Part shown: positions 14,261 to 63,104 of the stretch, in pieces
How the letters are laid out: each line of letters opens with the position of its first letter
How positions within the stretch are numbered: position 1 is the stretch's first letter
Assembly (NCBI GenBank): GCA_033182465.1
Contig: CP137330.1
Span: forward strand, 558,001-622,000
Length of the DNA: 64,000 nucleotides
Origin: Sanghuangporus weigelae
Taxonomy: Eukaryota > Basidiomycota > Agaricomycetes > Hymenochaetales > Hymenochaetaceae
Direction of reading: 5' to 3'
Position numbers and translations under genes: made by a program
Notes under the pieces: generated by a model
The model's input: only the letters and a program-made list of their open reading frames with translations
The model's database searches: none
What the model was told of the DNA's origin: nothing

Positions 14261-14350
14261 TGTGCAGAGATTGCGCTTCATTCATGTCGGCCGTGAAATA
14301 GTGTGAGCAAGCGAGTGGACATGACAATGCGGGCCACATTCGGGACCGGC

Positions 14351-14457: not shown

Positions 14458-14699
14458 GACTATTATTGGTCGGGGTATTCGTTCTCGTCCAAAGTTTACG
14501 TGTTGCTTTATTCAAGTATACTATGTACAGTATTTATTGTGCGTTCGTCAGGTATTGAGGACTATGATTTATGATTCCAAGAGTCCTTGGCAACCGTGTT
14601 TTCGCAGTGATCTCACCCCCCGACTTGCAGTTTATACTCTTCTCAGCACCTCTCATACACTGATACAGGGACCGCTCTGTTTCTTTCGCCTTTCCTAAT

Positions 14700-14895
14700 G
14701 TTACGATGCACGTCTGAATATGAATAGTGTGTGTGACGCAGTTCTGTCTGTCCTCCATATAGACACTTACAAGATACTGTACATCGATCTTCATACTTGC
14801 AGCAGACACCTCGGATCAGGTGCGGAACCGTACCAGGAGAATCAGAACAAGTTCTTCAAGGGAAGATGAGAGAAACCGAAAGCGAGGGGATGGCT
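14700..14895 (+). pseudogene. Relic of the last SET exon of the EZH2-like gene (3)
   Basis: This is almost the same sequence as relic 1 (cttgcag, cagacacctcggat, ggaaccgtaccaggag, agttcttcaagg) and sits at the same place, between a DUF6533 gene and an EZH2-like gene. It shows that units 1 and 3 share the older rearrangement that left this tail behind. Confidence 0.65.
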
Positions 14896-15014
14896 GACAA
14901 TTGATATTGCGTAATACATTATAACATAAGCTAATAGACGCGGCGAATTGCGACCCGGGCACTTCTCAAAACTTCTACCTTTCTGAAAAGCTTGCTACCG
15001 TAAAAATCTGATAT

Positions 15015-17748
15015 ATGCCTGGAGAGGAGGATGAAGCTGTTACGTCTCTTATAACTTCCGTATATCACGATGTCTGGGATGAATTCAATGCCTGGGAGCG
15101 AGACTACTGTGCATCCGAAATCCATTCACTTCATCGCGACGCTACCAAGACAGACGCGTCAGGAGAGTATCTAGAATCAGAGCCCACTGACATCGTCAGT
15201 CCTCAGTCATTCTTCAGTAATGCCTCTGTTGGTCCGGACTCGCTTCACTGGGAATATCCGAGCGAGAAAGTCGAGCGTCGAGACGATGCGACGGCTTTGG
15301 TCGATTATAAAATGATTCACCTGAAAGCTCCCAAATTGAACCCGACTCCGTGCTATGAGTCTTGCTCTCCGATGTCGACGAGCGTTTTTGCTGGAGATGA
15401 CCCGGATGATATGCCATTCGTTCCTTTCCCGGGGAGCAATTTTGATTTTACTGGATATCGGAATCATCACGAGAGGTTTGCATGGGAGAACGCGCGCCTG
15501 GATCCTGATAGTATGTTCTTAGTTATGTAATATCATGCTCATATCTCACTTTTCTGTGTAGAGGAGACAATCATTCTCGAATCGATACGTCGGCTAAGTA
15601 ACTACCATGACATCCCTTTGGAACATATAAAGCGGGTTCTCTTGCCGAACGTCCCGATCAGCAAGCTTGGGCAAAGGTAAGCTAGTAGATCATAAATAAG
15701 CTTGATTTAGCGTCAATAGTTCACGATAGAGACCTCCTTCAATGGACATCCTTTGTAATTGGCCACGACGAAATTCCGGCGTCACCTTCTCTCCCTGAAC
15801 ATTGGGATACCAAAGCGCGCTTTGATGGCATAGTCAAGCACTTTTGCCCCAACCTGAATTGCATCGAGGCTTTCTGCCCCCTTCATGGTAAGCCTTATCT
15901 ATCCTCGTTTTAGAAATAAGTACCGAAGATAACGTTGATGATTTGTATCAGAGGAGGTTCCTCCTGTCGGGCCACCGAATTACGCTTCGGCTGGGGAAAA
16001 GTCAGTTACAGATTCGGGACCATGTGGATCACAGTGTTATCTTTCTGCCCCTCATACGTCCAACAAAACGGATGTGGGTGTCCTCAAGTCCATGGGTTGT
16101 AGCCTGTTTGATATGATTACCCTAGGAGGCGGAACCGGACGAAGCAATTCGGAGCACCATGACAACCATTCTTTCGGTCTGTCCGGATTTGACTGACTGT
16201 CAGTTGGCTGTCGCTTGCAGCAGATCGTGTCGAGAGGTGAATCGCGCCATCCAGGCTCTTAGAGATGGACATTGCTAATGCATCTATGTAAAGACGCATG
16301 CTATTCGACAAAAGCTGGACTTACCAGCACAAGGAGGAACTTCTTTAAAAAGAACCGATGATTCGGGCTGGGATGATCTCACCAATACCGTAATCAATAA
16401 ACGTACGTTCCTTTTCTTTCCTTTTCCTTGCCGTAAAAACTCTTCATTGAACGCTCATTGATCATATCTGCAGTCAACGACTTTACCTTGAGCTATGATC
16501 CGTGAGTCAAATACATAGCACGCCCTCATGGGAACTTTGGGGTGTTCGATGATGATTGACTGTGCATCAAGTGGTCTACCATGTTCCCACCCGGGTCCAT
16601 GCGACAAGGCGACGAACTGCACTTGCTATCGTAATAAGGCGCACTGCGAGAAAGGCTGTCGATGTTCATCACAATGTACGTCCCTCAGAGATTCTCATCT
16701 GAACAAAGCACAGAAAATGTACATGAATATCGTTTCTTCCCAGGTATTCGTCGATTCCGTGGGTGCAAGTGCAGGATATGGTCGAAGCAAAAGCAAGGGA
16801 TGAAGACATGCATGAGCAAGAGCTGTCCATGCCTTGCTTCGGGTAGGGAGTGCGATCCGGAGGTGTGTTTGTCCTGTAAAGAGGGGTGAGTCTGGACCTG
16901 ATAATTATATATATGCCTATTGTTGAGTGGTTCTAATGATATACATCATTGTAGAGGTGAGTTTCGATACTGTCTGCCGGTTGCTCTTCAGTACTGATGA
17001 TGAGATAGGAGGACGATGCTCGAATTCTCAGATTCAGCGTGGTGATTCCAAGGTTGATAACCCCTACTCCTTTCTTATGTACTCGATCACTGACGGTATC
17101 CGTAATGGTAGAGGACTATCGTCAAACAGAGCAAGTTCGGATTCGGACTTTTCTTAGACCAGGCTGTCCATGTAGGAGAGCTCATCCTCGGTACGCGATA
17201 GAAATCCTCTTTGGCACATTCACCGACTCTAATGGTCTCGCCAAGAATACACGGGAGAAGTCATCTACGAATCTACAGTCGATTCTCGAGCGTACGTACA
17301 TCATCGCATATTGCATATCCATATTCTTTGTTATAACTTAATTTATAGTTTCTTCAATGAATTCCGTGGACGAAACTACGTCTATAAGCTCAATAATACA
17401 CTCTCGATTGACGCTTCGAAACTGGGCAACGAGTCGAGGTTTATTAATCATGATAGGGAGAGGGTGAATTGTTGTGCGAAATGTAAGTGCGGGGAGGCCA
17501 CTGCACTTTACTTCATTCCCATTTTGTTCGCATTTCTTACGCTCAGATATGCGTTTATAGATATGCTTGTGAATGGCGTGCAGCGGATAGGCATCTACGC
17601 TGGTTAGTCCATCCGTCCACATTAAGCACCCGGAGGATCCTGAGCTGACATATAATGGATCTTCATGTATGTCTTTGCAGTAAAGCACCTAAAACCGGGT
17701 ACGGAGCTGTACCTGGACTATGGAAACGAGTTCTTCAAGGAGGGGTGA
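15015..17748 (+). CDS. EZH2/E(z)-like histone H3K27 methyltransferase, copy B
   Basis: This is the more complete of the two SET genes. It starts MPGEEDEAVTSLITSVYHD, and the frame is open through the first exon to RLDPD (15,512). Later exons carry the MCSS-like patch (HFCPNLNCIEAFCPLH, GPCGSQCY), a helical region (TMTTILSVCPDLTDCQLAV), the CXC domain (16,530-16,890: SGLPCSHPGPCDKATNC, CEKGCRCSSQC, CMSKSCPCLASGRECDP) and the SET domain (about 17,130-17,748: FGLFLDQAVHVGELIL, YTGEVIYES, ESRFINHDRERVNC, RIGIYA, ELYLDYG). The product should methylate histone H3 Lys27 in a PRC2-type nuclear complex. The NHS triad of typical SET domains is NHD and the following PN is replaced, so activity or substrate choice may differ. 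There are about ten small introns; borders are by eye. It is convergent with NF-YB. Confidence 0.85.
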
Positions 17749-18132
17749 GAGAACCCGAAGATTGGGACCGAGCTCGGGCATTGTCTCGTTAGTCCAAGGA
17801 CCTGGTCGTACAGAGTCCGCGTTATAGAGCTTACCACGAGCCATGTGCGCCGGAAAACAGCTTTCCCACCTCGAATAAGCTAAAGAGAGCGAAAGCTGAG
17901 GAACATGATTGAGATGTTTCTGCTCCCGATGATTCTTCCACCTTGAATGACGATGTTTTGTTGAATCATCGTTGACGACGGCACTTGTAACGGATTTTAC
18001 GCGCCGGGAGGTGGTCCCCTTTGATAATGTATAGATGCAGGAACTAGAAATACATACATACATACATACACACAACGTAGAGTGCTTGTCCTTTTGTCGA
18101 CTGTTGGTCTCTGGTCAGAACGAGTCAATAAG

Positions 18133-49036: not shown

Positions 49037-49236
49037 ATATAATAATGCATTTAGTTGCATAATATATTTGATGTCTTTTCCTTAGCTAAATGCTAAACTA
49101 TATTTGAAATAACAAAAGGGATTTAGATTCAGATTTGGTAAACAAAGAAATAACTATACTTTCTAGTTTTAGTAATTATAGTTATTTCTTTGTTTGCAAA
49201 ATCCGAATCTAAATCCTTTTTGTTATTTCAAATATA
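49037..49236. repeat. AT-rich foldback (MITE-like) element
   Basis: Two 60-base arms, 49,099-49,158 and 49,177-49,236, are inverted copies with 4 mismatches around an 18-base centre; both start TATATTTGAAATAACAAAA when read inward. A second smaller palindrome (atataataatgca...ttgcataatatat, about 49,037-49,067) and the pair gcatttag (49,047) / ctaaatgc (49,085) lie just left. Such structure fits a foldback or miniature inverted-repeat element; the family is not identifiable from one copy. Confidence 0.75.
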
Positions 49237-49296
49237 TGTTATGAAAATTGTGGTTGACTGATGCGGTGTGGGCTAAGATAATTTACACACCAAATT

Positions 49297-49589: not shown

Positions 49590-50042
49590 TGAAAGGATCC
49601 GCTCAAAATCTCGCATCAGGATCGACGCGATCAGCAGATCCACACGATCGGCTTTCCAAACGCGACCAGTAACCAAGCCAGCTATCACGGGCCCAAGCGA
49701 TCAAGCGACCTAGGCAACAGTAACCCATTACCACCCGAGCGCTAGAAGCACCGAAGCGGATATGTAATCCCGCTAACAGCTAACACCGCCGACCGCCTAT
49801 TACCGCAGACTACCACTCTAACGCCGCCGACCAAGCAACCAGAGCGACCTTGATCAAAAGAAGCGATCAAACTCCTTAGAAGTCCAGAAGCACAACTACT
49901 AAAGCCTAAACGCTAAAAGGCTAAAGGCTAATAAGGTTTATGGAGACCTCACTGGCATTTCAGCACTGTCAAGTCTGTGCACGAGTTTACATGGTCCTTT
50001 ATGAAGTATACTACTTAGTATGCACGGCAACAGTTGGTACGC
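49590..50042 (+). repeat. Older partial LTR of the same Ty3/gypsy family
   Basis: It aligns without gaps to the first 453 bases of the LTR at 50,645 with about 16 differences (about 3.5%), nearly all transitions and most at CpG positions. It stops abruptly and is followed by unrelated GC-rich sequence. It is an old fragment left by an earlier member of the family. Confidence 0.9.
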
Positions 50043-50385
50043 TGTAGACTATCAGACCCTCTTAAGCAGCGGCGAAGGCGACGGCGTTCGACCACAGAGA
50101 GGCGTCGGCGGTGTCAAAGATCGGAGAGGTAAGAAGGGATCCAACTCGTGGCTCGACCTCCTGGACAGCTTGGTGCCGTGGGGGACAATTTGACCCGGAA
50201 GCACTGCTGCCGATCGGGATGCGCGCTCAGTCGTGGGGAGAGCTCAATCGTAGGGGCTATGGTATGATCTGCGTATAAAGGGGACGCCGCCGATAATGTA
50301 CGAGACAAAGCCGCCGATGAGTCAAGATGTCGGCGTCGCGAATAAGCAATAGAGCGACGGCGCTGTCGAGTCCTGCGAGCGGCGG
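50043..50385. other. GC-rich sequence of unknown origin
   Basis: It lies between the old LTR fragment and the minisatellite, with many cgacgg/cggcg phrases that look like decayed relatives of the minisatellite unit. No gene is supported. Confidence 0.4.
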
Positions 50386-50640
50386 CGATTACTAGTAGAG
50401 CGACGGTACCGCCGATTACCAGGAGAGCGACGGTGTCGCCGATTACCAGGAGAGCGACGGTGTCGCCGATTACCAGGAGAGCGACAGTGTCGCCGATTAC
50501 CAGGAGAGCGACAGTGTCGCCGATTACCAGGAGAGCGACAGTGTCGCCGATTACCAGGAGAGCGACAGTGTCGCCGATTACCAGGAGAGCGGCGGGGTCG
50601 CCGATTACCAGGAGAGCGACGGTGTCACCGAGTGTCAAGA
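50386..50640 (+). repeat. 27-bp minisatellite, about 9 units
   Basis: The unit is gattaccaggagagcgacg plus gtgtcgcc. Inner units are nearly identical; the first and last are degenerate. Because 27 is a multiple of three, it keeps frames open on both strands (SPITRRATV on plus, LLVIGDTVA on minus). It ends four bases before the 5' LTR. Confidence 0.9.
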
Positions 50641-50994
50641 GGGCTGAAAGGATCCGCTCAAAATCTCGCATCAGGATCAACGCGATCAACAGATCTACAC
50701 GATCAGCTTTCCAAACGCGACCGGTAACCAAGCCAGCTATCAAAGGCCCAAGCAATCGAGCGGCCTAGGCAACAGTAACCCGTTACCACCCGAGCGCTAG
50801 AAGCACCGAAGCGGATACGTAATCCCGCTAACAGCTAACACCGCCGACCGCCTATTACCGCGGACTACCACTCTAACGCCGCCGACCAAGCAACCAGAGC
50901 GACCTCGATCAAAAGAAGCGATCAAACTTCTTAGAAGTCCAGAAGCACAACTACTAAAGCCTAAACGCTAAAAGGCTAAAGGCTAATAAGGTTT

Positions 50995-51636
50995 ATGGAG
51001 ACCTCACTGGCATTTCAGCACTGTCAAGTCTGTGCACGAGTTTACATGGTCCTTTATGAAGTATACTACTTAGTATGCACGGCAACGGTTGGTACGCGTG
51101 ACTGTCACATCGAAACCGAGCGACACCTTCAGGATACAATGCATTCCAATCCACCAAGCCCAATAGTACCCAAGAAACGAGAGGAACTCACGATCACAAC
51201 TCGGACCCCTCGAACTGCGAACCCGATAACTTGGAGAATGATTGGATGGTATAGACCGGAGTTGCACACACCATGTCCAGCATCTACGATACAGGCAAAC
51301 CTTTATTTACCGAGAGATGCGAACCTGGAAACCAAGCAATTACAACTCCTTATACAACGAAGGATATGGCGCTACATTCGAGATATACGATACGAAGGCA
51401 AAGCATGGCTAGTCACCAGAACCCAGCAGAACCCACCAGCAGAGCTTATGCAGTTCATGATATGCCTTGGACCATACTCTACACCGACCCGACACCTTAA
51501 CACTGACGTGCGAGTTATGCTTACCCTCGCTGGACCTCGAGATGAATTCCGAAGAATCACATACCGAGCAGCCTACATCGCTCCAAGAGCAAAGATGCCA
51601 CTCAATGACGGCAATGACATCGTTATGGAGTACTGA
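50995..51636 (+). CDS. LTR-embedded ORF (5' LTR copy), unknown function
   Basis: 213 codons starting METSLAFQHCQVCARVYMVL, with a Pro/Thr-rich middle and a segment LLIQRRIWRYIRDIRYEGKA, ending GNDIVMEY. It lies in U3, upstream of the predicted RNA start, so from this copy it would not be in the element's own genomic RNA. No known domain is recognised. An identical frame is in the 3' LTR. Confidence 0.45.
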   Translation: METSLAFQHCQVCARVYMVLYEVYYLVCTATVGTRDCHIETERHLQDTMHSNPPSPIVPKKREELTITTRTPRTANPITWRMIGWYRPELHTPCPASTIQANLYLPRDANLETKQLQLLIQRRIWRYIRDIRYEGKAWLVTRTQQNPPAELMQFMICLGPYSTPTRHLNTDVRVMLTLAGPRDEFRRITYRAAYIAPRAKMPLNDGNDIVMEY

Positions 51637-51851
51637 CAGCGGAGCATTCCATATCGGAGCACCACCTCTATTGTCTCAGTCAGCAACTCCAAAGAATTCT
51701 GTCATAGTGGAGACGACCTTACAAAGATTGGAGCAAAGTGGAGCGAAGCGCAGCAGGATGACAAAGGAACAGATGTAATGGTGGAGGAAAGTGGAGTAAA
51801 GTGGAGACAGGATGAGTAAGAAATAGGACGGAAAATGGAATATCTGGGAGC

Positions 51852-51897
51852 ATAAATAGTTGTAGGATTAGGCCCTCATTTCCCCATCTTTCGATCC
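51852..51897 (+). promoter_or_regulatory. LTR TATA-like box and predicted RNA 5' end
   Basis: ATAAATA at 51,852-51,858 is followed 34 bases later by ATCTTTCGATCC (51,886-51,897), which is the exact reverse complement of the primer-binding site. In Tf1/sushi-type elements the first bases of the RNA pair with that site, so this marks the likely transcription start. Confidence 0.7.
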
Positions 51898-52158
51898 TCT
51901 TAACACACTGGTGTAAAGCTTGCCCTACAGCGAGCTATTACTGTGTGCTTTGTACTATCACGCCTCTTGGAAATCCCAATCTGCTTTACTATTACCTCGT
52001 ATCTGAAAACATCCATAACTCGGACCGCGACTAGGAAGGCTAGTAAGGGACCGCGTGGTACAGCCAGACGTGGGTAGATAAGATCACCTCTGCACAACAC
52101 ACCGCTGCTTAGGCAAAAGGATTGAACCGGTGTAACCCCGGGCCTACTCCCTAACATT

Positions 52159-52170
52159 GGATCGAAAGAT
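52159..52170 (+). other. Primer-binding site, self-priming type
   Basis: GGATCGAAAGAT lies two bases after the 5' LTR and is a perfect 12-base complement of ATCTTTCGATCC in the LTR. Pairing with the 5' end of the same RNA, as known for Tf1 and related chromoviruses, is the simplest reading. Confidence 0.75.
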
Positions 52171-52217
52171 CACTCGCTAGTTTTACCACCACCTCTCACG
52201 GGCAAGGTTCTTGGCTA

Positions 52218-52559
52218 GTGTTTTATCGAGGCGAGGACCGTCGACCTCAAGTCCCTATCGACGTCACTAGTTTCGAGACTAGTACCCATATCGAATCCTC
52301 AGGACAAGTGCACATCCTGGAGAACGACAAACCCGATTCACTTAAATCACATATCTACTATCATAACCCCTACAACGACGAAGTGTACCTAATAGCAAAG
52401 GCATCTGGTAGCCCTGCAGTTGGGAGCACGCAAACAACAACCACGAAAGTAGCAGCAGTCCCTTCCACTATTGCTACATTCGACGAGAAAGGAACTACTT
52501 GGTTAACAGCACCAAGGAACAATAACCCTGAAGCATCAGGCGAGAAACGAAGTTCATGA
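52218..52559 (+). CDS. Element ORF before gag, 113 codons
   Basis: Starts MFYRGEDRRPQVPIDVTSFE. Acidic to neutral, Thr-rich, with no recognised domain. Its stop overlaps the start of the next frame in an ATGA arrangement, which could allow linked translation. Role unknown. Confidence 0.4.
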   Translation: MFYRGEDRRPQVPIDVTSFETSTHIESSGQVHILENDKPDSLKSHIYYHNPYNDEVYLIAKASGSPAVGSTQTTTTKVAAVPSTIATFDEKGTTWLTAPRNNNPEASGEKRSS

Positions 52560-53590
52560 ACCGATCAGGAAACGCCAACAACAGAAGTAACGGTCATCGA
52601 ACGAACGAACGGGCGAACGATAATCAAACGAGGTTCACACCTAGATCCCTCGACGAACGAGTTCAACATATCACCAACAGGCTACGTAGTCTGGAAAGCG
52701 ATCACGACATACTATACGCGACAACGAACCACAGCATATTGTATCCACCAGTGATCAGAAGGCTACAAGAAAGGGTTGAAAGACTGGAAGAACGAACTGC
52801 AAACACGGGGCAGTCAAACAGTCTACCAACCGGAGCATACGCGACAGCAGTAGGAGATCGATTCGAAGCACTAGAAGCAACTACTCGAAGAATTGGAGCA
52901 CAGGTAGCAGCTCTAGAGAGATATACTCTGGAATTGGATCGAGCAGCAGGGGCACTCAATCAACGGGTCATAGACGGGAACGGAGTACTTGACCGAGAGC
53001 TCAACGCTATCCGGAACAGGATTACGGCCCAGGAACAACAACTACAGACGATTGAGACGAGAGTCGGAGAGCTTAACAGGACAGCTCTAGATCAACCAAG
53101 GATTGTTCAAGACATCCATAACCTGCGAGAAGCCCTACTCCAACTAGGACAAACAATCGAGTCGAGTCAACGCACCTACGCAGCTATACTCACATCGGTA
53201 CAGACAACCGAAACTACCTCAAGGAATATACTCGAACACGCTCAACGAATCCGAGAAGTAGCTCAGGCAGCACAACGCTGGGAACACTTTCTACCAAGAG
53301 AGAGAGCCCAACAGGAACAGAGTTCTGACGAATCAGTGTCCTCAGACGAAGAAGCATCACGAAGGCCATTCTTACTCAGAACCCCACCTCGAACGGTTGT
53401 CATCCAAGTACCAACAGTACCTGCAGTACCAGCAAGTGGTTCAGTAGCAACCCAAGCGCCAGAGAATCCACCACCACCATCCTATTCACCACCAGCAGTG
53501 CCCATAAGCACTTACGATCATGTCGACAACCGACCAGAAGGTGCAAGCACTGGAGCAGCAACTACAGACTCTTCAGACACAACTCTCTAA
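52556..53590 (+). CDS. Element ORF before gag, coiled-coil, 344 codons
   Basis: Starts MNRSGNANNRSNGHRTNERA. A Gln/Glu/Arg-rich heptad pattern runs through most of the protein (VQHITNRLRSLESD, LQERVERLEERT, LNAIRNRITAQEQQLQTIET), then a Pro-rich tail (PENPPPPSYSPPAVPIS). It overlaps the start of gag by 71 bases in another frame. It resembles the coiled-coil region that in other gypsy elements is the N-terminal part of gag, or an ORF1-like assembly protein. Inferred only. Confidence 0.5.
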   Translation: MNRSGNANNRSNGHRTNERANDNQTRFTPRSLDERVQHITNRLRSLESDHDILYATTNHSILYPPVIRRLQERVERLEERTANTGQSNSLPTGAYATAVGDRFEALEATTRRIGAQVAALERYTLELDRAAGALNQRVIDGNGVLDRELNAIRNRITAQEQQLQTIETRVGELNRTALDQPRIVQDIHNLREALLQLGQTIESSQRTYAAILTSVQTTETTSRNILEHAQRIREVAQAAQRWEHFLPRERAQQEQSSDESVSSDEEASRRPFLLRTPPRTVVIQVPTVPAVPASGSVATQAPENPPPPSYSPPAVPISTYDHVDNRPEGASTGAATTDSSDTTL

Positions 53591-54608
53591 ACACAGCATC
53601 AAACTTCCGAAGTACTATGGCAAGCGAAGCGAAGATATTGATCTGTGGATTAGTCGATGTATCTTGAAGCTGGCACAGCATGGAGTCAAGGATGAGGAGG
53701 AGATCGCAAAGAGCCTATTTGCAGCACTAGAAGGCGACAGCTACGATTGGTTTGCAGAGAAGAATACCCTAACGTCATTCGATGCCAATGGGAAACTGAA
53801 ACCAGTACCTGCGATTATCGCTGCAACAAATGGAATGTTCGCATCACTCAAGGACATGCTGAACTGGATGAGGATCCGAGCAGGACATCCGATCATTGGA
53901 GAACAGGAAGCCCTATTCCAACTACTATGCATCCAGCAGAAAGGAGCAAGCATTAGGGCGTACAACGACGAATTCCGACGACTCAAAGCACGAGCACCAG
54001 ACACGATGGATAAGCAGATGCTCAAGTACATCTATGTCAAAGGACTAGACATGTGGGTCAAACGACGAGTCGAATCTGTACAACCCGACGCTTTCGAGAA
54101 GAACGACCTCGATGCATGGATGGAATGGACAAGCAACCTAGCAAACTCTGATGCCAGGCAAAGGCTCATGGGTAGTCAAACATACACCCCGAGATTCAAA
54201 TCGAACGGACAGTCATCTTTCCGACCACCAGTACAAACAACGAAACGAGATCCAGACGCCATGGATGTAGATGCACTCCGAGGCTTGCCGAAGAAGGGAG
54301 GCAAATGCTACAACTGTGAAAAGTCAGGACATTACGCAAAGGATTGCAAGGCACCAAGGAAGCAAAAGGGTTCTTCCTCTAAGCGGCCGAAGAAGACTAA
54401 TGGTGTAAAACGGAGGACGATGACAACACGAACAATCGATTTCAAGGAAACATGTCCCGATCCGCACTGCCGAAGGCCAGTCCACTACGACCATGTAGCA
54501 TGGGCTAAAGGCGATGAATCAGCAGGATGGACTTGCAAGCATGACGAAGAATACCGAAACAACATTCGCAAATCCCTAGCAAGTAAAGAGCAACAGGGAA
54601 AAGATTAA
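53520..54608 (+). CDS. gag (capsid and zinc-knuckle nucleocapsid)
   Basis: 362 codons starting MSTTDQKVQALEQQLQTLQT. A short coiled coil is followed by the retrotransposon gag core (KLPKYYGKRSEDIDLWISRC ... DEEEIAKSLFAAL, DEFRRLKARAPDTMDKQ) and one CCHC knuckle (CYNCEKSGHYAKDC), then a second Cys/His cluster (CPDPHCRRPVHYDH). It is the structural protein of the particle. Confidence 0.9.
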   Translation: MSTTDQKVQALEQQLQTLQTQLSKHSIKLPKYYGKRSEDIDLWISRCILKLAQHGVKDEEEIAKSLFAALEGDSYDWFAEKNTLTSFDANGKLKPVPAIIAATNGMFASLKDMLNWMRIRAGHPIIGEQEALFQLLCIQQKGASIRAYNDEFRRLKARAPDTMDKQMLKYIYVKGLDMWVKRRVESVQPDAFEKNDLDAWMEWTSNLANSDARQRLMGSQTYTPRFKSNGQSSFRPPVQTTKRDPDAMDVDALRGLPKKGGKCYNCEKSGHYAKDCKAPRKQKGSSSKRPKKTNGVKRRTMTTRTIDFKETCPDPHCRRPVHYDHVAWAKGDESAGWTCKHDEEYRNNIRKSLASKEQQGKD

Positions 54609-54712
54609 GACCTCCATCGAACGAGACTGCGCGATGTGAGTGTGACAAGGGTGACGAGAAAGGTTTCAACAACCAGTGTTTCAAACCTCCTGGGTTCAAC
54701 CCCAGTGAAGCG

Positions 54713-57700
54713 ATGTACAATAAGCGATTGCCAATACAAGCATTGCATCCCCGATTACCTATTCGAGTGAAGGTTGGAACAAAGACCCTAGCAGTCAAAG
54801 CGTTAATCGATTCCGGAGCTACATGCAGCACGATACACCCCAACTTGGTACGACACTACAGCCTATTCAAAAAGAGGCTTGATCACCCTCGACCTTTGAA
54901 TAATGCGGATGGAAGTCCCAACCAAGGAGGAGCAATCACGCACGAGGTCTACACATTAATTTTTGATGGACCTAAACCGCAGCCACAAACGTTGGCAGTA
55001 GCAACCACAGGACAGGATCAAGTGATCCTAGGAATTGACTATTTGGCCAAAGTCAATCCCGAAATTGATTGGAAGAATCAAGTATGGAATCGGAATGGTA
55101 ATTCGATACCATTCGAGCTCAACGTCATACGAGCTACCAAGAAGCGAAGGCACAGGAAGCGCAAACGGAAACGGCAAACGAAAGGCAAACCTGACAAGAC
55201 AAGACCTAGGCATAACACGAAGCAACAGGCTCAGGACAGAGACAACTATCGACACTCTGGAGCACCAGGAATAATATTTGCGCCAAGGAGAGACAACAAC
55301 GGACACTCTCACGAAACGAAGCCACAAGCGAAGCCGGAAACCAGACCAGCAACACCAAGACTGGAACAGGCAAAACAGACGCCAGAAGTGAAGAGTCCGA
55401 GCACGGAAAATATACCAGACTCTGCAACGAAACAGCCACAACAGGAAACGGCAAACAAGCATCATCGAGATGAGGAGGAAATAAACTACACTCCCAAGCG
55501 ATGGAAGAAACAGGCACCACAAGGAACGAGTATAGTGCAACGACGACCAAGGCACATACCGAGACGGATGATCCCAGCATGGCAATTGTACCAGACATCC
55601 GAAGGCGAAACAGAAGAGATAACAGGCAAGCATAGCCTAGACGAACAGGAGGAAATAAACGACTCTCCGAAACGTTGGAAGAAACAACCACCACAGAAGA
55701 TACATCCACTGAGGCAAAACATGCCGGAAGATGAAGAACTCTGGCCATCACCAGAAGAAAACCCGGGCATGAAGTATAGGATACGACCACGAAAGACACG
55801 GTATCCAGAGAAGCCAGTGGCAGGCATTATACGACCCAGAACAGCATCGTTAATGCGAGGAGCGAGTCCCACACCGAAGCGTACAAGATGGGCAGACAAC
55901 GAAAGCGATATCGAGATGCAAGACGAGCAGGAGACAACAGAAGACACTCCTATGCGCGATATAGAACCAGAAGACATTGAAAGTCTTAGGACGACCAACC
56001 AACCAGCTACCCTTACCAGAAAGGAAGAGCTCGCTGCAAAGCTAGAGCTAGACATCAATCGAAATTGGTCACCAAGGCAGCAGAACCAAGTCTCACAGCC
56101 TCTGAACAAAGCGAGTTCAGTATCCCAGCAGTATTCTCAACAAAAGGCAGCTGCAGAAGGACTACTAGGAACACAGAAACGAGATTGGCGAAAACTCCTA
56201 CCAAAGGAAATAGAAGACTACGCAGATGTCTTTGATCCTGACAAGTCAAGAAGGTTACCCAAGCATACGAAATGGGATATGGCAATTAACCTCAAAGAAG
56301 GAGTACCATTACCGAAACCGAGGCCTATTATCAAGCTCACACGAGAAGAGCAGGCAGCACTCGATGCTTATGTCAAAGAGTTACTTGACAAAGGATGGAT
56401 TGAAAAGGTTCAACCACATGAACCATGTCCGGTAGCAGCACCAGTCTTCTTTGTAGGAAAGAAAGACGGAGGAGCACGAGCAGTAACCGATTACCGAGAC
56501 ATCAACGACACGACAGTATCAGATCCATACCCGATACCGATCATGAGTGTTCTCCCAGAGAAACTGGAGAAAGGAAAATTCTTCTTTACACTCGACATGC
56601 GATCAGGTTACAACAACCTGCGAATCCGAGAAGGAGACGAGTGGAAGGCAGCATTCCGAGTTGGCAATGCAGTCTACAAGCCAAAGGTCATGATGTTTGG
56701 AATGAAGAACTCACCTGCAGTATTCCAACGATTCATGAATGACAACTTCGAATATTGGCTCAGGACAGAAGAAGCACTCAACTATTTGGACGACCTTATT
56801 GGTCAAGCACAAACTGAAGAGGAACATTGGAAACTCCTCAGGGCAATTCTACAGAAATGCCGAGAGCTCGACATTTACCTCAAAATCGAGAAATGTCACT
56901 TCCTCCAAACCCAGCTCGACTACTTGGGATTTGTAGTAGGAACGAAAGGCATCCAGATGGATCCTTATAAGCTCAAAGCTATTCACGAATGGCCAGTGCC
57001 AAAGACGAAACGACAAGTTCGAAAGTTCCAAGGATTTTGTAACTTCTACCGAAGATTCATCAGGAACTATGCCGATACATTCGCACCTATTGGCGACCTT
57101 ATCAAAAAGGATCGCAAGTTCATATGGGCAGAGGCACAAGACAAAGCATTCGAAAGTATCAAGAAGGCATTCGAAACGGAAGTCGCATTGGCAATGCCAA
57201 AGCCAGACAAATCATACACATTGGAAACCGACGCATCCGATGTAGCGATTGGTGCAGTCTTACAACAAGAAGACAACCAAGGAGAACTGAGACCTTTAGG
57301 TTTCATGTCGAAAACTCTAACGAACACCCAACGAAACTATCCGACGCATGACAAAGAGATGCTAGCAATCATGGAAGCACTCAAGCATTGGAGACACCTA
57401 TTGGAGGGAACCAAAGAACCAGTAACAATCCGAAGCGATCATGCAAACCTCCGATACTTCATGACAGCTCAGAATCTATCGAGACGTCAAGCGAGATGGG
57501 CATTAGAGTTATCACGATATAACTTCAAGATTCTCCATTGGCCAGGCAAGAAGAACCAAGCTGACGAGCTATCACGACGATCCGACTATATGCCAGAGGA
57601 CAAGGACAACTTAGGAGTTACCTTGTTACCTCCTGATACGATCAAGCAACAAACATTGCGACGCACAGAGATCAACGGTCTATACAAGCTAGAAACTGAA

Positions 57701-59191
57701 ATGGTCACTATCTCTGATCCTATTATCCGAACGATCAAGAGGAACTACAATACCGAGGAGGCTAAGAAGGAAATTCAGGCGATCAAGCAGAGCAACGGCT
57801 ACAGTTACAGGAACGGCTTGCACTACGTAACCAATGCATTATATATCCCGCCGTCCGCCAACCTACGAGCGTTGCTAATCCGAAGGCGCCATGATCACAA
57901 ACTTGCAGGCCACCCAGGAGCAGAAAAGACCATAGAGCTTGTAAAGCGATCATACTATTGGCCGAAGATGGAAGAAATGATCCGAGCATATACCGCAACC
58001 TGCGACATATGTCAGCGTGCAAAACCGATTCGACAGTTTCGAAATCCGCCGCTCCAACCGTTGGAGGCACCACATCAACCATGGGAAACCATAACCTGTG
58101 ACCTGATTACCGACTTACCAGTCAGCAATGAAGGCTACAGTGCGATACTCGTTATAGTGGACAAACTCACTAAAATGGGGAAGTTCATTCCTTGCCAAGG
58201 AACACCCAATGCTAAGCAGTTGGCACGTTTGTTCCGCCAACATGTCTTCAAATACTACGGGGCCCCTAAACGAGTAATCTCCGACCGAGGTAGCAACTTC
58301 ACCGCGCAATTCCTCAAGGAGTTCTGCAGACTCATCGATGTCGATTGGAAAACTAGTACAGCGTATCATCCACAAACCGATGGTCAAACCGAGCGACTAA
58401 ATCAAGAGCTTGAACAGTACTTACGCTGCTATGTGTCCTACCGACAAACAGATTGGGCAGAGTACATCGATATAGCAGAATTCGCCTACAACAACAGGAA
58501 GCACAGTACTACACATCAGTCACCATTCTATACACTGTATGGATGGCATCCTCACCTGGACGTTGCGGAGACCGGTGATTCAAACGTCCCAGAAGCAATA
58601 AATCACCTAGAGGAGCTTCGACAAGTACAGCAAGAAGCCTATAATTCGATTAGGCAAGCGAATGAGGCAATGAAGCTTTATGCAGACCTGCATCGAGGCA
58701 AACTGCCAGAGTACAAGCCAGGAGACGAAGTGTTACTAGACATGAGGAATCTCAGTCGATTGGAACCAACGAAGAAACTTGCAATGAAATGGGCAGGGCC
58801 TTATAAAGTCGAGAAGGCAGTCGGACAAGTGTCATTCAGATTACGCTTACCCGAAACCCTTCCGATCCACCCAGTGTTTCATGCGAGTCTTCTCAGGCCT
58901 TACAAACGAAAGGAATACCCTGGAAGACCCACTTTGGATGAACCACCACCTATTGAAGTGGAGGGAGAAGCAGAGTACGAAGTGGAGACAATTCATAACA
59001 CAAGACGTCATCGGAGCAAGGTCCAATACCTTATCCAATGGAAAGGATACCAGGAGCGAACATGGGAGCCACTTGACAACCTCAAGAACTCCTATCAAAT
59101 GATCGAAGCATTCCATAAAAAGTATCCTCAGGCAATCCAGCCACCGAACCTTAACCAATGGATCGCCGCACGAAAACGAATGAGGCAATAG
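54713..59191 (+). CDS. pol: PR-RT-RNaseH-IN-chromodomain, 1,492 codons
   Basis: In order: an aspartic protease with LIDSGATCSTIH (about residue 36); a very long low-complexity Gln/Pro/Lys-rich spacer (about residues 140-480); reverse transcriptase with FTLDMRSGYNNLRI and the catalytic YLDD (about residue 690); RNase H (TLETDASDVAIGAVLQQ); integrase with the HHCC zinc finger (HKLAGHPGAEKTIELV, CDICQRAK), the DDE core (CDLITDLP, VISDRGSNF, HPQTDGQTERLNQELEQYL) and a GPY/F-like module (WAGPYKVEKAV); and a C-terminal chromodomain (YEVETIHNTRRHRSKVQYLI, QWKGYQERTWEPLDNL; residues about 1421-1475) that in chromoviruses guides insertion toward marked chromatin. It lies in a different frame from gag after a gap of about 100 bases. 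Confidence 0.95.
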   Translation: MYNKRLPIQALHPRLPIRVKVGTKTLAVKALIDSGATCSTIHPNLVRHYSLFKKRLDHPRPLNNADGSPNQGGAITHEVYTLIFDGPKPQPQTLAVATTGQDQVILGIDYLAKVNPEIDWKNQVWNRNGNSIPFELNVIRATKKRRHRKRKRKRQTKGKPDKTRPRHNTKQQAQDRDNYRHSGAPGIIFAPRRDNNGHSHETKPQAKPETRPATPRLEQAKQTPEVKSPSTENIPDSATKQPQQETANKHHRDEEEINYTPKRWKKQAPQGTSIVQRRPRHIPRRMIPAWQLYQTSEGETEEITGKHSLDEQEEINDSPKRWKKQPPQKIHPLRQNMPEDEELWPSPEENPGMKYRIRPRKTRYPEKPVAGIIRPRTASLMRGASPTPKRTRWADNESDIEMQDEQETTEDTPMRDIEPEDIESLRTTNQPATLTRKEELAAKLELDINRNWSPRQQNQVSQPLNKASSVSQQYSQQKAAAEGLLGTQKRDWRKLLPKEIEDYADVFDPDKSRRLPKHTKWDMAINLKEGVPLPKPRPIIKLTREEQAALDAYVKELLDKGWIEKVQPHEPCPVAAPVFFVGKKDGGARAVTDYRDINDTTVSDPYPIPIMSVLPEKLEKGKFFFTLDMRSGYNNLRIREGDEWKAAFRVGNAVYKPKVMMFGMKNSPAVFQRFMNDNFEYWLRTEEALNYLDDLIGQAQTEEEHWKLLRAILQKCRELDIYLKIEKCHFLQTQLDYLGFVVGTKGIQMDPYKLKAIHEWPVPKTKRQVRKFQGFCNFYRRFIRNYADTFAPIGDLIKKDRKFIWAEAQDKAFESIKKAFETEVALAMPKPDKSYTLETDASDVAIGAVLQQEDNQGELRPLGFMSKTLTNTQRNYPTHDKEMLAIMEALKHWRHLLEGTKEPVTIRSDHANLRYFMTAQNLSRRQARWALELSRYNFKILHWPGKKNQADELSRRSDYMPEDKDNLGVTLLPPDTIKQQTLRRTEINGLYKLETEMVTISDPIIRTIKRNYNTEEAKKEIQAIKQSNGYSYRNGLHYVTNALYIPPSANLRALLIRRRHDHKLAGHPGAEKTIELVKRSYYWPKMEEMIRAYTATCDICQRAKPIRQFRNPPLQPLEAPHQPWETITCDLITDLPVSNEGYSAILVIVDKLTKMGKFIPCQGTPNAKQLARLFRQHVFKYYGAPKRVISDRGSNFTAQFLKEFCRLIDVDWKTSTAYHPQTDGQTERLNQELEQYLRCYVSYRQTDWAEYIDIAEFAYNNRKHSTTHQSPFYTLYGWHPHLDVAETGDSNVPEAINHLEELRQVQQEAYNSIRQANEAMKLYADLHRGKLPEYKPGDEVLLDMRNLSRLEPTKKLAMKWAGPYKVEKAVGQVSFRLRLPETLPIHPVFHASLLRPYKRKEYPGRPTLDEPPPIEVEGEAEYEVETIHNTRRHRSKVQYLIQWKGYQERTWEPLDNLKNSYQMIEAFHKKYPQAIQPPNLNQWIAARKRMRQ

Positions 59192-59366
59192 TTGCATCAC
59201 ATGCACTCCACCCGATGGAGCCGCTTATGGATCCACAATAGAGATGATGAGTAAGGTCCCCAATGACCTTACCAAGCGATGACATCAATGTGGCACACCA
59301 AAGCGAGAGCAGAGATAGAAGAATTAGGCAAGACATCGCCGACATACCAACAAGATGGTATAAAAC

Positions 59367-60443
59367 ATGGAGAACTTCGAGCTAAGGAACAACAACTCGA
59401 ATCTCAACAGCTCTACTTCACTGCAGACGAACTACTACTCAGCTATGCCTATCTTCGATGAGCTACATGCATTCTGTCAACCAGAAGATGCACCAGAATG
59501 GACATTTGCACTTAGGCCACCGACCGAACGTTATCAATGGCCACAGCTGTGCAACCGATTCAACGAAGAGAACTACGAAGACGAAATCGTACCCCTATGC
59601 CCAGGAAAGTACTTCGACGATCTATTTGACAAGTGGAATGCAGTCCACCACAACCGAGACGAAATACCCCATCTTATGATGGCGAATCACTCAGACGAGT
59701 GGTTATTCAAACTCAGTAACCCTCGAGACGCAGCATTACGCCGACTCAATGATGATGCATTTCTAACCTACGCGATCGAACTCGAAACACAAGCATTACA
59801 TCGAGGCAAGATCGACTTTAGGCACGAAACGACATACAAGAACATCATGGGCATCTATCATTCGGCAATTCAAATTTGCGCCTACCGACGAGACATGACT
59901 ACCGCAATTCTTAACCGAATGATGCGATGGAGTCACTATCATCCGATGAGCATCGATGCGATGAAGTACATTATATACATAGCCGACCAGACGGGCTTCT
60001 ATGCATCCCACACCATGCAGTTCATGACGGTACTCAACATGACGAAGTATTACGAAGGAACGAGATACCGAACGGTTATTGAAGCGAGGAACTCTACTAC
60101 GGACGAGGTACCACTCGACAACATCGAGCACCACGTAGTCGAAGGCAAAGAGGTTAACTACGACCCTCATTACCTTATGGAACTCAACAACCGAGAGGAA
60201 GAAGCCAGAGAAAAACTACAGGCTACACGACACCCCTTGCTGGAAGATCTGATGATCTCAGTCTACCAGTACCCGAACGAACTCTACCAGCCGGACGAGA
60301 TGCTTACTATGTCGGAACAGGAGGACATGTACATACACTCCGACGATACAGAGTCAAGTGAAGAAGGTGAAAGCAGGGAACTATATACCCCAGCGAACTC
60401 GGCCCAGACTACACCTGAGGCTGAAGAATCCGAAGATTTGTAA
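59367..60443 (+). CDS. Element ORF after pol, 358 codons, unknown function
   Basis: Starts MENFELRNNNSNLNSSTSLQ, with an alternative inner start MPIFDELHAFCQPEDAPEWT. It is rich in aromatic residues, His and Asp/Glu (FALRPPTERYQWPQLCNRF, YKNIMGIYHSAIQICAYRRD, MMRWSHYHPMSIDAMKYIIY) with a predicted helical core and an acidic tail (DTESSEEGESRELYTPANS). No signal peptide or membrane span is seen, so it is not a typical env. The position is that of accessory genes in other retroelements. Confidence 0.55.
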   Translation: MENFELRNNNSNLNSSTSLQTNYYSAMPIFDELHAFCQPEDAPEWTFALRPPTERYQWPQLCNRFNEENYEDEIVPLCPGKYFDDLFDKWNAVHHNRDEIPHLMMANHSDEWLFKLSNPRDAALRRLNDDAFLTYAIELETQALHRGKIDFRHETTYKNIMGIYHSAIQICAYRRDMTTAILNRMMRWSHYHPMSIDAMKYIIYIADQTGFYASHTMQFMTVLNMTKYYEGTRYRTVIEARNSTTDEVPLDNIEHHVVEGKEVNYDPHYLMELNNREEEAREKLQATRHPLLEDLMISVYQYPNELYQPDEMLTMSEQEDMYIHSDDTESSEEGESRELYTPANSAQTTPEAEESEDL

Positions 60444-61157
60444 ACAACTCTTCTTTTATGCAACCCCTTTCCCATATCGTGACCCGACATGGTCAATTAT
60501 GCATTTCATTCTTACCTTATGATATTTATGGTCACATCCGACCAAATTATGCTTTATGCACCTCTTTATTTCACGCTTATTCGGCCAACCAGCACAAATG
60601 AAGCACTATGCAGAAGTGTCAAAGAACCTACAAGGGCCTAGACATTTTGTATATTGTTTTATTGTGCCGGCGCCGAATTGGCAGATTATGCCTACCTTTT
60701 ATTATCCTCTATGCAACGGAGAAGCCAAAAAGGTTACGTGAAGTCACTCCCTTGCATTATGCTAGGATGTGCCTTCACGCTGAAAGGCACTCCAATTACA
60801 CTCTTTCTTCGAAAAACTCCATTTGGGGGTTGAAGAGCCGTAGGTAAACACCTGGAACTTCACTCCCAAATTGGTATAAAACTTATTCATTAACGACTTA
60901 ATGATTTTAATGACTTTATAATTTCTTTCTTATCACTTTCAATTGCGTCATATTCTTTACATGATGCACATTTCATATTCATATCCCTTCCCACCACCCT
61001 TTACAAGTCAATGTCTTCCCAGACACCCTTTTCACGACGTTCCTGCGAAGCAATACCTGCATTTTCGACGACTGGATCGATATCCTCAACGTCATAACCG
61101 AGCGCGAGGTGAACTCGAAGCGCAACAGTCGTAACATCGCGCTGGAACGATTGCATT
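60444..61157. other. Untranslated 3' part of the element
   Basis: AT-rich sequence with no long sense frame. The right part (from about 61,000) faces the antisense ORF and may belong to it if that transcript is spliced. Confidence 0.4.
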
Positions 61158-61349
61158 TCAAAGTCGGCCTCCTAGAGGAAGATTAACGACTTGAAACGGC
61201 ACAGAGCATGCATCACTTACCTGAGCACGCCTCTTACGCTCCAAAATCCAATGATTTATGCCGAAAATCGCGACAATAACGACAAAAACAGTAACAGCAG
61301 CGGCGACTTTCGACATTTTGGAGCAGAGATGATGATGGTCTGATAGCAA
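61158..61349 (-). CDS. Antisense ORF with one membrane segment
   Basis: From ATG at 61,316 on the minus strand: MSKVAAAVTVFVVIVAIFGI then NHWILERKRRAQ, a short N-terminus, one strong transmembrane helix and a basic stop-transfer stretch. A good donor-like site (cag/gtaagt) lies right after, so the true product may be longer if the transcript is spliced. It sits just inside the 3' LTR. Function unknown. Confidence 0.4.
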   Translation of the reverse strand: MLSDHHHLCSKMSKVAAAVTVFVVIVAIFGINHWILERKRRAQVSDACSVPFQVVNLPLGGRL

Positions 61350-61399
61350 AAATCAACCATCACTAGGCGACCCTTTATCCGAGCTTTCTCACGGATTAG

Positions 61400-61435
61400 G
61401 ATGAACATTTCTCCGAAAGTTCATCTTAGGGGGGG
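61400..61435 (+). other. Hairpin and polypurine tract
   Basis: GATGAAC (61,400-61,406) and GTTCATC (61,419-61,425) form a 7-bp stem, directly followed by AGGGGGGG (61,428-61,435), the likely plus-strand primer site of the element just ahead of the 3' LTR. Confidence 0.7.
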
Positions 61436-61440
61436 TGTAG

Positions 61441-62952
61441 TGAAAGGATCCGCTCAAAATCTCGCATCAGGATCAACGCGATCAACAGATCTACACGATC
61501 AGCTTTCCAAACGCGACCGGTAACCAAGCCAGCTATCAAAGGCCCAAGCAATCGAGCGGCCTAGGCAACAGTAACCCGTTACCACCCGAGCGCTAGAAGC
61601 ACCGAAGCGGATACGTAATCCCGCTAACAGCTAACACCGCCGACCGCCTATTACCGCGGACTACCACTCTAACGCCGCCGACCAAGCAACCAGAGCGACC
61701 TCGATCAAAAGAAGCGATCAAACTTCTTAGAAGTCCAGAAGCACAACTACTAAAGCCTAAACGCTAAAAGGCTAAAGGCTAATAAGGTTTATGGAGACCT
61801 CACTGGCATTTCAGCACTGTCAAGTCTGTGCACGAGTTTACATGGTCCTTTATGAAGTATACTACTTAGTATGCACGGCAACGGTTGGTACGCGTGACTG
61901 TCACATCGAAACCGAGCGACACCTTCAGGATACAATGCATTCCAATCCACCAAGCCCAATAGTACCCAAGAAACGAGAGGAACTCACGATCACAACTCGG
62001 ACCCCTCGAACTGCGAACCCGATAACTTGGAGAATGATTGGATGGTATAGACCGGAGTTGCACACACCATGTCCAGCATCTACGATACAGGCAAACCTTT
62101 ATTTACCGAGAGATGCGAACCTGGAAACCAAGCAATTACAACTCCTTATACAACGAAGGATATGGCGCTACATTCGAGATATACGATACGAAGGCAAAGC
62201 ATGGCTAGTCACCAGAACCCAGCAGAACCCACCAGCAGAGCTTATGCAGTTCATGATATGCCTTGGACCATACTCTACACCGACCCGACACCTTAACACT
62301 GACGTGCGAGTTATGCTTACCCTCGCTGGACCTCGAGATGAATTCCGAAGAATCACATACCGAGCAGCCTACATCGCTCCAAGAGCAAAGATGCCACTCA
62401 ATGACGGCAATGACATCGTTATGGAGTACTGACAGCGGAGCATTCCATATCGGAGCACCACCTCTATTGTCTCAGTCAGCAACTCCAAAGAATTCTGTCA
62501 TAGTGGAGACGACCTTACAAAGATTGGAGCAAAGTGGAGCGAAGCGCAGCAGGATGACAAAGGAACAGATGTAATGGTGGAGGAAAGTGGAGTAAAGTGG
62601 AGACAGGATGAGTAAGAAATAGGACGGAAAATGGAATATCTGGGAGCATAAATAGTTGTAGGATTAGGCCCTCATTTCCCCATCTTTCGATCCTCTTAAC
62701 ACACTGGTGTAAAGCTTGCCCTACAGCGAGCTATTACTGTGTGCTTTGTACTATCACGCCTCTTGGAAATCCCAATCTGCTTTACTATTACCTCGTATCT
62801 GAAAACATCCATAACTCGGACCGCGACTAGGAAGGCTAGTAAGGGACCGCGTGGTACAGCCAGACGTGGGTAGATAAGATCACCTCTGCACAACACACCG
62901 CTGCTTAGGCAAAAGGATTGAACCGGTGTAACCCCGGGCCTACTCCCTAACA
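61441..62952 (+). repeat. 3' LTR
   Basis: Same length (1,512 bases) and, in every stretch compared, the same sequence as the 5' LTR. If the terminal TGTAG just before it (61,436-61,440) is counted, the LTR would be five bases longer and start directly at the polypurine tract. Confidence 0.95.
61791..62432 (+). CDS. LTR-embedded ORF (3' LTR copy), unknown function
   Basis: Identical to the frame at 50,995-51,636. In this copy it would lie inside the full-length RNA, since U3 of the 3' LTR is transcribed, so this is the copy that could be expressed from the genomic RNA. This layout recalls accessory genes in the 3' LTR of some retroviruses. Confidence 0.45.
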   Translation: METSLAFQHCQVCARVYMVLYEVYYLVCTATVGTRDCHIETERHLQDTMHSNPPSPIVPKKREELTITTRTPRTANPITWRMIGWYRPELHTPCPASTIQANLYLPRDANLETKQLQLLIQRRIWRYIRDIRYEGKAWLVTRTQQNPPAELMQFMICLGPYSTPTRHLNTDVRVMLTLAGPRDEFRRITYRAAYIAPRAKMPLNDGNDIVMEY

Positions 62953-62996: not shown

Positions 62997-63017
62997 GACC
63001 TCTTACAACGTAAGATT

Positions 63018-63104
63018 GATTCGGGCCGGGATCGAACCGGCGATCGCCTGTGAACACTAACTTCAGATGTAAGACAGGCGTCATAACCACTAGACCACCG
63101 AACC
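63018..63104 (-). tRNA. tRNA-Val (anticodon UAC) with 15-nt intron
   Basis: Minus strand. The acceptor stem GGTTCGG pairs with CCGAATC; the D-arm is GTCTAGTGGTTATGAC (A box); the anticodon stem CCTGT/ACAGG closes a loop CT-TAC-A with the intron inserted one base after the anticodon, ending before the final C; the T-arm is GCCGG-TTCGATC-CCGGC (perfect B box). 87 bases with intron, 72 without. It lies 65 bases from the retrotransposon's 3' end. Confidence 0.93.

Follow-up and report, generated by a model that had tools for sequence, protein, structure and literature searches.

A stretch of 64,000 nucleotides from the basidiomycete Sanghuangporus weigelae (the window, C13:558001-622000 in a genome of 33,870,148 bases and 13 contigs) carries a Ty3/gypsy chromovirus of a recently active family that has probably acquired four accessory genes, which would be expressed according to the plan proposed below. 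One gene precedes gag, one follows pol, one lies in the U3 region of the long terminal repeats (LTRs), and one, interrupted by an intron, runs antisense between pol and the 3' LTR. Judged from their substitution patterns, the pre-gag, post-pol, and U3 frames are genes under coding constraint, and the antisense frame is taken, less firmly, to be a gene. LTR retrotransposons are usually considered to need no more than Gag and Pol, and it is easy to dismiss any extra frame. The genome holds about 110 copies of the element (place counts are lower bounds, and some places are fragments). The main features are the following, in window positions:

50645-62952, forward strand: whole element, 12.3 kb, Ty3/gypsy chromovirus
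50645-52156, forward strand: 5' LTR, 1512 bp, TG...CA ends; putative U3 at 50645-51885, putative R and U5 at 51886-52156
50995-51636, forward strand: U3 gene, 5' LTR copy, 213 amino acids (aa), recognised by codon constraint and homologues
52556-53590, forward strand: pre-gag gene, 344 aa; its first Met is its only Met, in a weak start context (T at -3)
53520-54608, forward strand: gag, 362 aa, overlapping the pre-gag gene by 71 nt; start context with A at -3
54587-59191, forward strand: pol frame, with protease, reverse transcriptase (RT), RNase H, integrase, and chromodomain
59445-60443, forward strand: post-pol gene, 332 aa when counted from the start that relatives use; the frame is also open from the ATG at 59367
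61221-61316, reverse strand: antisense exon 1, 32 aa, a hydrophobic stretch followed by basic residues
61172-61220, reverse strand: predicted antisense intron, 49 nt, GTAAGT...CTAG
61001-61171, reverse strand: antisense exon 2, 56 aa and stop
61317-61440, no strand: conserved non-coding block, 124 nt, ending in the polypurine tract
61441-62952, forward strand: 3' LTR, 1512 bp, same sequence as the 5' LTR
61791-62432, forward strand: U3 gene, 3' LTR copy, at the 3' end of the presumed genomic RNA

By its domain content the element is a Ty3/gypsy chromovirus. Specifically, pol gives Pfam matches above cut-off to RVT_1, RNase H, Integrase_H2C2, rve, SH3_Tf2-1, and Chromo, in the order protease, RT, RNase H, integrase that is expected for this group, with the chromodomain at the integrase C-terminus (PF00385, E 3.9e-10, residues 1422-1470) and the protease just under the cut-off (gag-asp_proteas, 25.7 vs 28.2 bits). 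Gag shows a CCHC zinc knuckle above cut-off and Ty3_capsid below it.

Coding constraint on the extra frames

The window was compared with other copies, every distinct substitution being counted once, and the ratio of nonsynonymous to synonymous changes (N/S) was set against an expectation matched for the kind of substitution (CpG transitions, other transitions, and transversions by base), with p-values serving as guides only. The young set consists of 58 overlapping loci, about 15 of which cover the pre-gag gene, about 10 gag, about 33 the post-pol gene, and about 34 the LTR gene; the old set consists of 21 mostly older loci (L060-L080, with L076 unaligned), including about 8 pre-gag, 5 gag, 8 post-pol, and 3 LTR-gene copies. 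Among the young copies, the ratio is 0.17 for the pre-gag frame (8 N, 22 S; p 4.1e-6), 0.08 for the post-pol frame (4 N, 27 S; p 3.2e-9), and 0.08 for the U3 frame (2 N, 10 S; p 1.5e-4), next to 0.08 for gag itself (3 N, 19 S; p 2.4e-7), whereas the shifted frames give ratios above 1 or have zero synonymous changes. Post-insertion decay adds neutral changes in old copies, where the ratios are 0.43 (pre-gag), 0.40 (gag), 0.39 (post-pol), and 0.39 (LTR gene), against a lowest shifted-frame ratio of 0.88 (p 0.36).

The accessory frames are also broken at about the rate of gag. Internal stops occur at 7 of 111 places for post-pol, 10 of 113 for pre-gag (52556-53590), and 7 of 110 same-family places for gag, leaving 104, 103, and 103 stop-free, respectively; the LTR frame is stop-free in all 150 places scored (the best 150 of 430 candidates).

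Moreover, two of the proteins have relatives in other Sanghuangporus species. Six database proteins, every one of them from Sanghuangporus, are related to the post-pol protein. One each comes from S. weigelae (98% identity), S. sanghuang (69%), and S. vaninii (64%), and S. baumii contributes three (54%, 50%, and 73%, the last over 40% of the query); four are 322-335 aa long and the other two 250 and 311 aa. In each of these relatives the protein begins at the position of residue 27 in the window frame, which makes 59445 the likelier start. In the C6 relative of the element, DNA identity is 86-89% over most of pol and 70% from the end of pol through the post-pol gene, whose protein is about 50% identical to that of the window; the post-pol gene therefore changes faster than pol or has another history. 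Against the same relative, N/S is 0.33 from RT to the chromodomain, 0.49 in earlier pol, and 0.53 in the post-pol gene. The protein has no meaningful Pfam match (two single-member matches, E 0.089 and 0.14), and an env-like signal peptide and membrane anchor were not found by hydropathy alone, without a dedicated signal-peptide program (highest 19-residue mean 0.42 in 332 aa). For the U3 protein, four relatives were retrieved: one from S. weigelae at 98% identity, and two from S. baumii and one from S. vaninii at 70-73%. Each is 212 or 213 aa long, and by our own count of the listed columns 122 of 213 do not vary. Its counterpart is 68% identical with 4 stops in the C6 copy (N/S 0.45) and 75% identical over 191 aa with 2 stops in the C9 copy (N/S 0.41). 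Pfam returned no match to it, and PDB sequence profiles gave zero matches up to E 10 for either the post-pol or the U3 protein. The U3 gene lies within the LTR, upstream of the putative RNA start, and a solo LTR can therefore retain a whole protein gene; the one solo LTR read (L003) keeps it intact.

Other candidate frames did not behave as genes. The 113-aa frame at 52218-52559 begins with GTG, has no ATG, and gives N/S values of 1.46 in young copies (7 N, 3 S; p 0.81), 0.75 in old ones (p 0.26), and 0.94 overall. The antisense frame at 55486-56109 within pol carries stops in 2 of 6 other copies, and a frame of its length arises in 52 of 1000 shuffles of codon order and in 39 of 1000 runs of synonymous resampling. 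Its N/S values (0.43 on five copies, 0.67 against the C6 relative L059, 0.60 on all rows; p 0.0022) come from a frame that shares third codon positions with pol, whose own ratios over the same stretch are 0.43, 0.57, and 0.54; chance length and the constraint on pol thus explain the signal without a gene, and the frame is best read as an artefact of the A-rich linker. Two further antisense frames fared likewise: 55028-55633 has a low ratio in five copies (0.40, n 21, p 0.031), yet it scores 1.29 against L059 and 1.01 when all rows are used, and 55206-55799 scores 1.70, 1.14, and 1.20.

An earlier note on this DNA had listed at least five accessory frames, namely two before gag, one after pol, one antisense, and one in each LTR, and had set purifying selection against random disruption as their test. 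The frames after pol and in the LTRs are borne out as constrained genes with relatives in other Sanghuangporus species (332 and 213 aa), as is the 344-aa member of the pair before gag, which has the constraint but for which no relatives were retrieved at E<=0.001; its unconstrained 113-aa partner falls away. For the antisense frame the earlier note named no position: the candidate in pol, broken in 2 of 6 copies, is unsupported, and the probable antisense gene lies elsewhere, at 61316-61001.

The probable antisense gene and the border of the 3' LTR

The antisense gene, overlooked by the earlier reader, would encode 88 aa in two exons, which puts a probable conserved antisense coding gene between pol and the 3' LTR, as in elements with an antisense open reading frame (aORF). 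Exon 2 occurs at 109 places and is open in 108, which is weak evidence by itself because the copies are so alike. Two diverged relatives in the same genome, the C9 and C6 copies, both carry the two exons, with the intron in the same place (GTGAGT...CTAG, 50 nt), so that its position is the same in three lineages, and exon 2 is 57% identical without a stop in C9 and 52% identical with one stop in C6. When copies are compared with one another, the gene has an N/S ratio of 0.37 (12 N, 15 S; p 0.009); with C9 as the reference the ratio is 0.54 (p 0.005), and with C6 it is 0.65 (p 0.028). On all rows exon 2 scores 0.50 (p 0.0017), with 1.41 and 1.48 in the shifted frames.

The product is predicted to be a small membrane protein. 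In the three lineages, the highest 19-residue Kyte-Doolittle means are 2.41, 2.04, and 2.74, in segments that start at residue 2, 7, and 1, and a basic patch (ERKRR, ECKR, ERKKR) directly follows the predicted anchor. Its 88 aa with one predicted anchor fit the size of sORF2/FAST-like proteins (about 70-115 aa); an N-terminal ectodomain with an amphipathic motif, or MGxxxS/T, is absent, and no MG start occurs in the three lineages. The single Pfam match (E 0.02) lies below the cut-off.

The antisense ATG and the ATG of the U3 gene in the 3' LTR are 475 nt apart and point away from each other; a divergent promoter between them is therefore the simplest guess. The 124-nt block at 61317-61440 is 93% identical in C6 and 85% in C9, compared with 65-70% for the neighbouring exons, and holds a stable predicted hairpin, its folding being equalled by 1 of 200 shuffles (z -2.29); it may be a promoter, an RNA signal, or both.

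An AUG-free leader and the proposed expression plan

The region between the 5' LTR and gag has a composition that suggests how the pre-gag and gag genes may be expressed. The relevant features are:

51851-51858, forward strand: CATAAATA, a candidate TATA-like box by the usual consensus, about 28-35 nt upstream of the putative RNA start
51886-51897, forward strand: ATCTTTCGATCC, putative 5' end of the genomic RNA and self-primer, recognised by complementarity
52159-52170, forward strand: GGATCGAAAGAT, primer-binding site, exact 12-nt complement of 51886-51897
51886-52555, forward strand: ATG-free leader, 670 nt, containing most of the non-gene frame below
52218-52559, forward strand: non-gene frame, 113 aa, GTG start, no ATG
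54596-54602, forward strand: slippery heptamer GGGAAAA, one codon (GAT) before the gag stop

The primer-binding site begins two bases past the LTR end, and both ATCTTTCGATCC and GGATCGAAAGAT are kept in 23 of 23 rows, older copies included, several rows being one insertion. An exact 12-nt complement of this kind marks self-primed elements and would put the start of the RNA near 51886, from which the putative boundary between U3 and R follows; the element would thus prime its own reverse transcription, the 5' end of its RNA pairing with the primer-binding site. Downstream, the stretch 51888-53519 contains a single ATG, the pre-gag start, against a mean of 13.2 and a minimum of 4 in 2000 dinucleotide shuffles, while the gag stretch, by contrast, contains 34. 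Within the pre-gag gene before the gag start, no out-of-frame ATG occurs, compared with a mean of 6.5 under synonymous resampling (1 of 5000 runs as low); under the same resampling, gag, pol, and the U3 gene lie above expectation and the post-pol gene about equals it. The single ATG is found in 17 of 17 young rows, which represent 14 insertions with that of the window counted; 7 of these rows are incomplete on their 3' side. In older or damaged copies, 6 of 7 rows have 3-13 ATGs, the pre-gag start counted, and in the seventh, a copy that looks young, a deletion spans the start and no ATG is left.

According to the proposed plan, ribosomes would scan the 670-nt AUG-free leader, some would initiate at the weakly placed first AUG and produce the 344-aa protein, and the remaining ones would cross the pre-gag gene, where no other AUG lies in their way in any frame, and go on to that of gag; leaky scanning of this kind is the simplest reading. 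Frameshifting by -1 is known in retroelements, and Gag-Pol would arise from -1 slippage on GGGAAAA at the end of gag, a heptamer that is in the right phase for entry into pol and is kept in 15 of 15 rows. Because its splice sites lie on the opposite strand, the antisense intron would be safe in the genomic RNA. Splicing of a subgenomic sense mRNA was considered and set aside, with loose splice-signal matches only. As a guess, the accessory proteins most likely serve the life cycle of the element (assembly, trafficking, silencing escape) and not the host.

In the same genome, a second gypsy-type gag family (28% identical, 3 places) was noted. In the one copy read (L089, C13:462501-463700), gag is preceded by a separate frame at least 322 aa long, and 17 ATGs occur there within 1.2 kb; pre-gag frames are therefore not unique in this genome, and the AUG-free design is not shared by L089.

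Several points weigh against the picture of four accessory genes expressed in this way. The genes and the whole plan are read from DNA. The loci compared overlap and the copies are related, which limits the p-values. The post-pol and U3 proteins, encoded at the 3' end of the RNA, would need a shorter mRNA or an internal promoter, and the RNA 3' of GGGAAAA folds no better than shuffles (z 0.46), leaving a stimulatory structure unsupported. The antisense exons show modest constraint (p 0.0017-0.028), and a ratio of 0.59 (p 0.013) is found as well for a sense frame with the same third positions as exon 2. The pre-gag protein has no protein-database match at E<=0.001 and no relatives below 87% identity in the genome among the matches listed; as that database search returned not even the identical copy, its negative outcome says little, and the C6 relative, which lacks the gag region, says nothing about this gene. 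Pfam gave the pre-gag protein weak matches only (E 0.007-0.07, mostly coiled-coil families). AlphaFold models were built for the U3 and the post-pol protein, and both are poor (mean confidence score, pLDDT, 51.5 for one and 40.4 for the other). A fold search with the U3 model, the only one searched, found 0 matches at E<=0.001, and neither the structure and fold results nor those from Pfam support any function for the proteins.

Other explanations have to be set against the same evidence. The extra frames could be passenger sequence, captured or arisen by chance and intact only since most copies are young, in agreement with the identical LTRs in 4 of 4 pairs (drawn from the best matches), with the 98-100% likeness of most listed copies, and with the two initially listed frames that truly are of such a kind (52218-52559 and the pol antisense frame). 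Nevertheless, the existing variants avoid amino acid changes about as strongly as those of gag, the post-pol (50-73%) and U3 (70-73%) proteins occur in other species with mostly conserved lengths, and constraint is found against diverged relatives (post-pol 0.53 in C6; U3 0.45 in C6 and 0.41 in C9), which makes passenger status very improbable. It is also conceivable, but unlikely, that pre-gag and Gag form one protein by +1 frameshifting within their 71-nt overlap: the frames do overlap, and pre-gag must shift by +1 to enter gag, but such a mechanism leaves unexplained why the pre-gag gene lacks a second AUG in any frame before gag and why each of the 16 rows that extend to gag keeps its AUG, with A at -3. 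For the antisense gene, there is a small chance that the product acts as RNA, through double-stranded RNA or interference with sense transcription, and not as protein; its modest codon signal would agree, and antisense RNA roles are discussed for plant elements in PMC7264820. Conversely, the frame, the intron position, and the splice signals are kept in three lineages, exon 2 is open in 108 of 109 places, and the constraint falls on codons. Four protein-coding accessory genes with leaky scanning from pre-gag to gag thus remain the preferred reading.

The element in its genome and among known systems

The two 1512-bp LTRs of the window element differ at 0 positions, and the LTR pairs are 100% identical in 4 of 4 elements compared (the window's included, all chosen among the best matches); the family therefore has very young copies and, on this sequence evidence, is recently active. 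The earlier note's description of a very young element of about 12.3 kb with LTRs of about 1.5 kb was exact in its coordinates and sizes and agrees with these identities. In the published S. weigelae assembly, LTR/Gypsy elements make up 5.58% (PMC10803629). Four of four other insertions with both flanks (1 solo LTR and 3 full elements) show a 5-bp target-site duplication, and the window copy has none (AGGGC vs ATAAT); the family makes a 5-bp duplication, and the window copy seems to have lost its own. Its left flank is a 590-bp stretch (50055-50644) with a 27-bp tandem array, 532 bp of which match, at 94%, an insert in pol of the C6 relative (L059 6081-6612), so that 50055-50644 seems to be a separate dispersed repeat. 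Beyond it lies the head of an older LTR of the same family:

49590-50054, forward strand: older LTR head, 465 bp, 96% identical, outside the element

This LTR starts 1055 bp upstream of the element and ends inside the U3 gene. An exchange between two insertions with loss of the intervening stretch would explain the missing duplication and the flanks; neither of the exact reciprocal recombination junctions was found in the genome. In two inverted neighbouring full copies (L004 and L007, C13 ~364-389 kb), TAGGT occurs in one 5' flank and again in the 3' flank of the partner copy, as if their flanks had been swapped by an inversion between them. A tRNA-Cys gene lies on the minus strand at 63017-63104, 64 bp from the 3' LTR; targeting to tRNA genes was dismissed, with a tRNA in 0 of 13 other loci scanned (some loci being one insertion repeated). 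The sense strand of U3 and the genes (50645-60443) is A-rich, with 33-35% A and 16-20% T, vs 25% A and 28% T in window 1-18000. An inverted repeat with 72-nt arms (89% complementary, 4-nt spacer) is located at 49094-49241.

Each kind of extra gene has counterparts elsewhere. The sag gene of mouse mammary tumour virus is encoded in U3, and the present U3 gene would resemble it in layout, being a protein gene in both LTRs and, presumably, at the 3' end of the genomic RNA, in a host of another kingdom. HBZ of human T-cell leukaemia virus (HTLV) type 1 is a spliced nuclear factor of the basic leucine zipper type; it too is an antisense gene at the 3' end of a retroelement, unlike the S. weigelae product in that the latter has a predicted membrane anchor. 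Self-priming is described for Tf1/sushi-type chromoviruses in PMC2864245, and the present element is similar in having a primer-binding site complementary to the putative RNA 5' end and a chromodomain at the end of pol, and differs in its much larger size, its long LTRs, and its four accessory genes. For HTLV, PMC7264820 places the antisense promoter in the 3' LTR. Antisense aORFs between pol and the 3' LTR are described, in PMC7264820 and PMC8365987, for the plant elements Grande, RIRE2, Retand, and PvRetro13 and for the Boty-like elements of Botrytis with brtn, and the Grande gene is transcribed from its own upstream promoter. These elements share with the present one an antisense gene for a putative protein at the same location; here, in contrast, a short gene with a predicted intron codes for a product with a predicted membrane anchor, and three other extra genes accompany it (brtn and gene23 were compared by description only). 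In the Drosophila MDG1 group, PMC11952523, a preprint, reports sORF1 and sORF2 as accessory genes before gag with low dN/dS (nonsynonymous to synonymous rates). Likeness lies in a constrained accessory gene before gag and in a short one-pass membrane protein, here predicted, with a basic patch; the MDG1 protein is sense-encoded, has an ectodomain, and often has a myristoylation motif, whereas the present one is antisense and spliced, with almost nothing before the hydrophobic stretch. Lastly, the LTR elements of bdelloid rotifers (PMC5408684) carry ORF3, family-specific genes after pol of GDSL, DEDDy, coiled-coil, and membrane types, and so resemble the present element in having an extra gene after pol, and differ in that the post-pol protein here lacks a meaningful Pfam match.

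No paper on this family or on the four-gene combination was found among the matches listed in the open-access full-text literature (subscription papers and most preprints lie outside that search), and within the same scope a conserved protein gene in the U3 of a fungal element was not found either. The earlier note's remark that no such set is known in chromoviruses holds to this extent, with precedents for each kind of gene in other retroelements, and its phrase "undescribed system" is too strong: what may be new is the combination, plus a conserved U3 gene in a fungal element, and single features have precedents. An organisation like that of complex retroviruses, with a gene-carrying LTR, a divergent U3/antisense gene pair at the border of the internal region and the 3' LTR, and a pre-gag protein set against Gag by leaky scanning, is an unlikely extension of these data. 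In its boldest form, improbable as well, the small membrane protein would help capsids to pass between hyphae without an envelope, by analogy with what is proposed for insect sORF2 elements.

Real genes can be told from chance frames in this family: the 34-Mb genome holds about 110 copies, those that have decayed serve as a natural control, and other species have relatives. The AUG-free leader provides a directly testable model of expression. If the accessory proteins act, they would offer an entry to the self-regulation of fungal elements or to their movement between hyphae.

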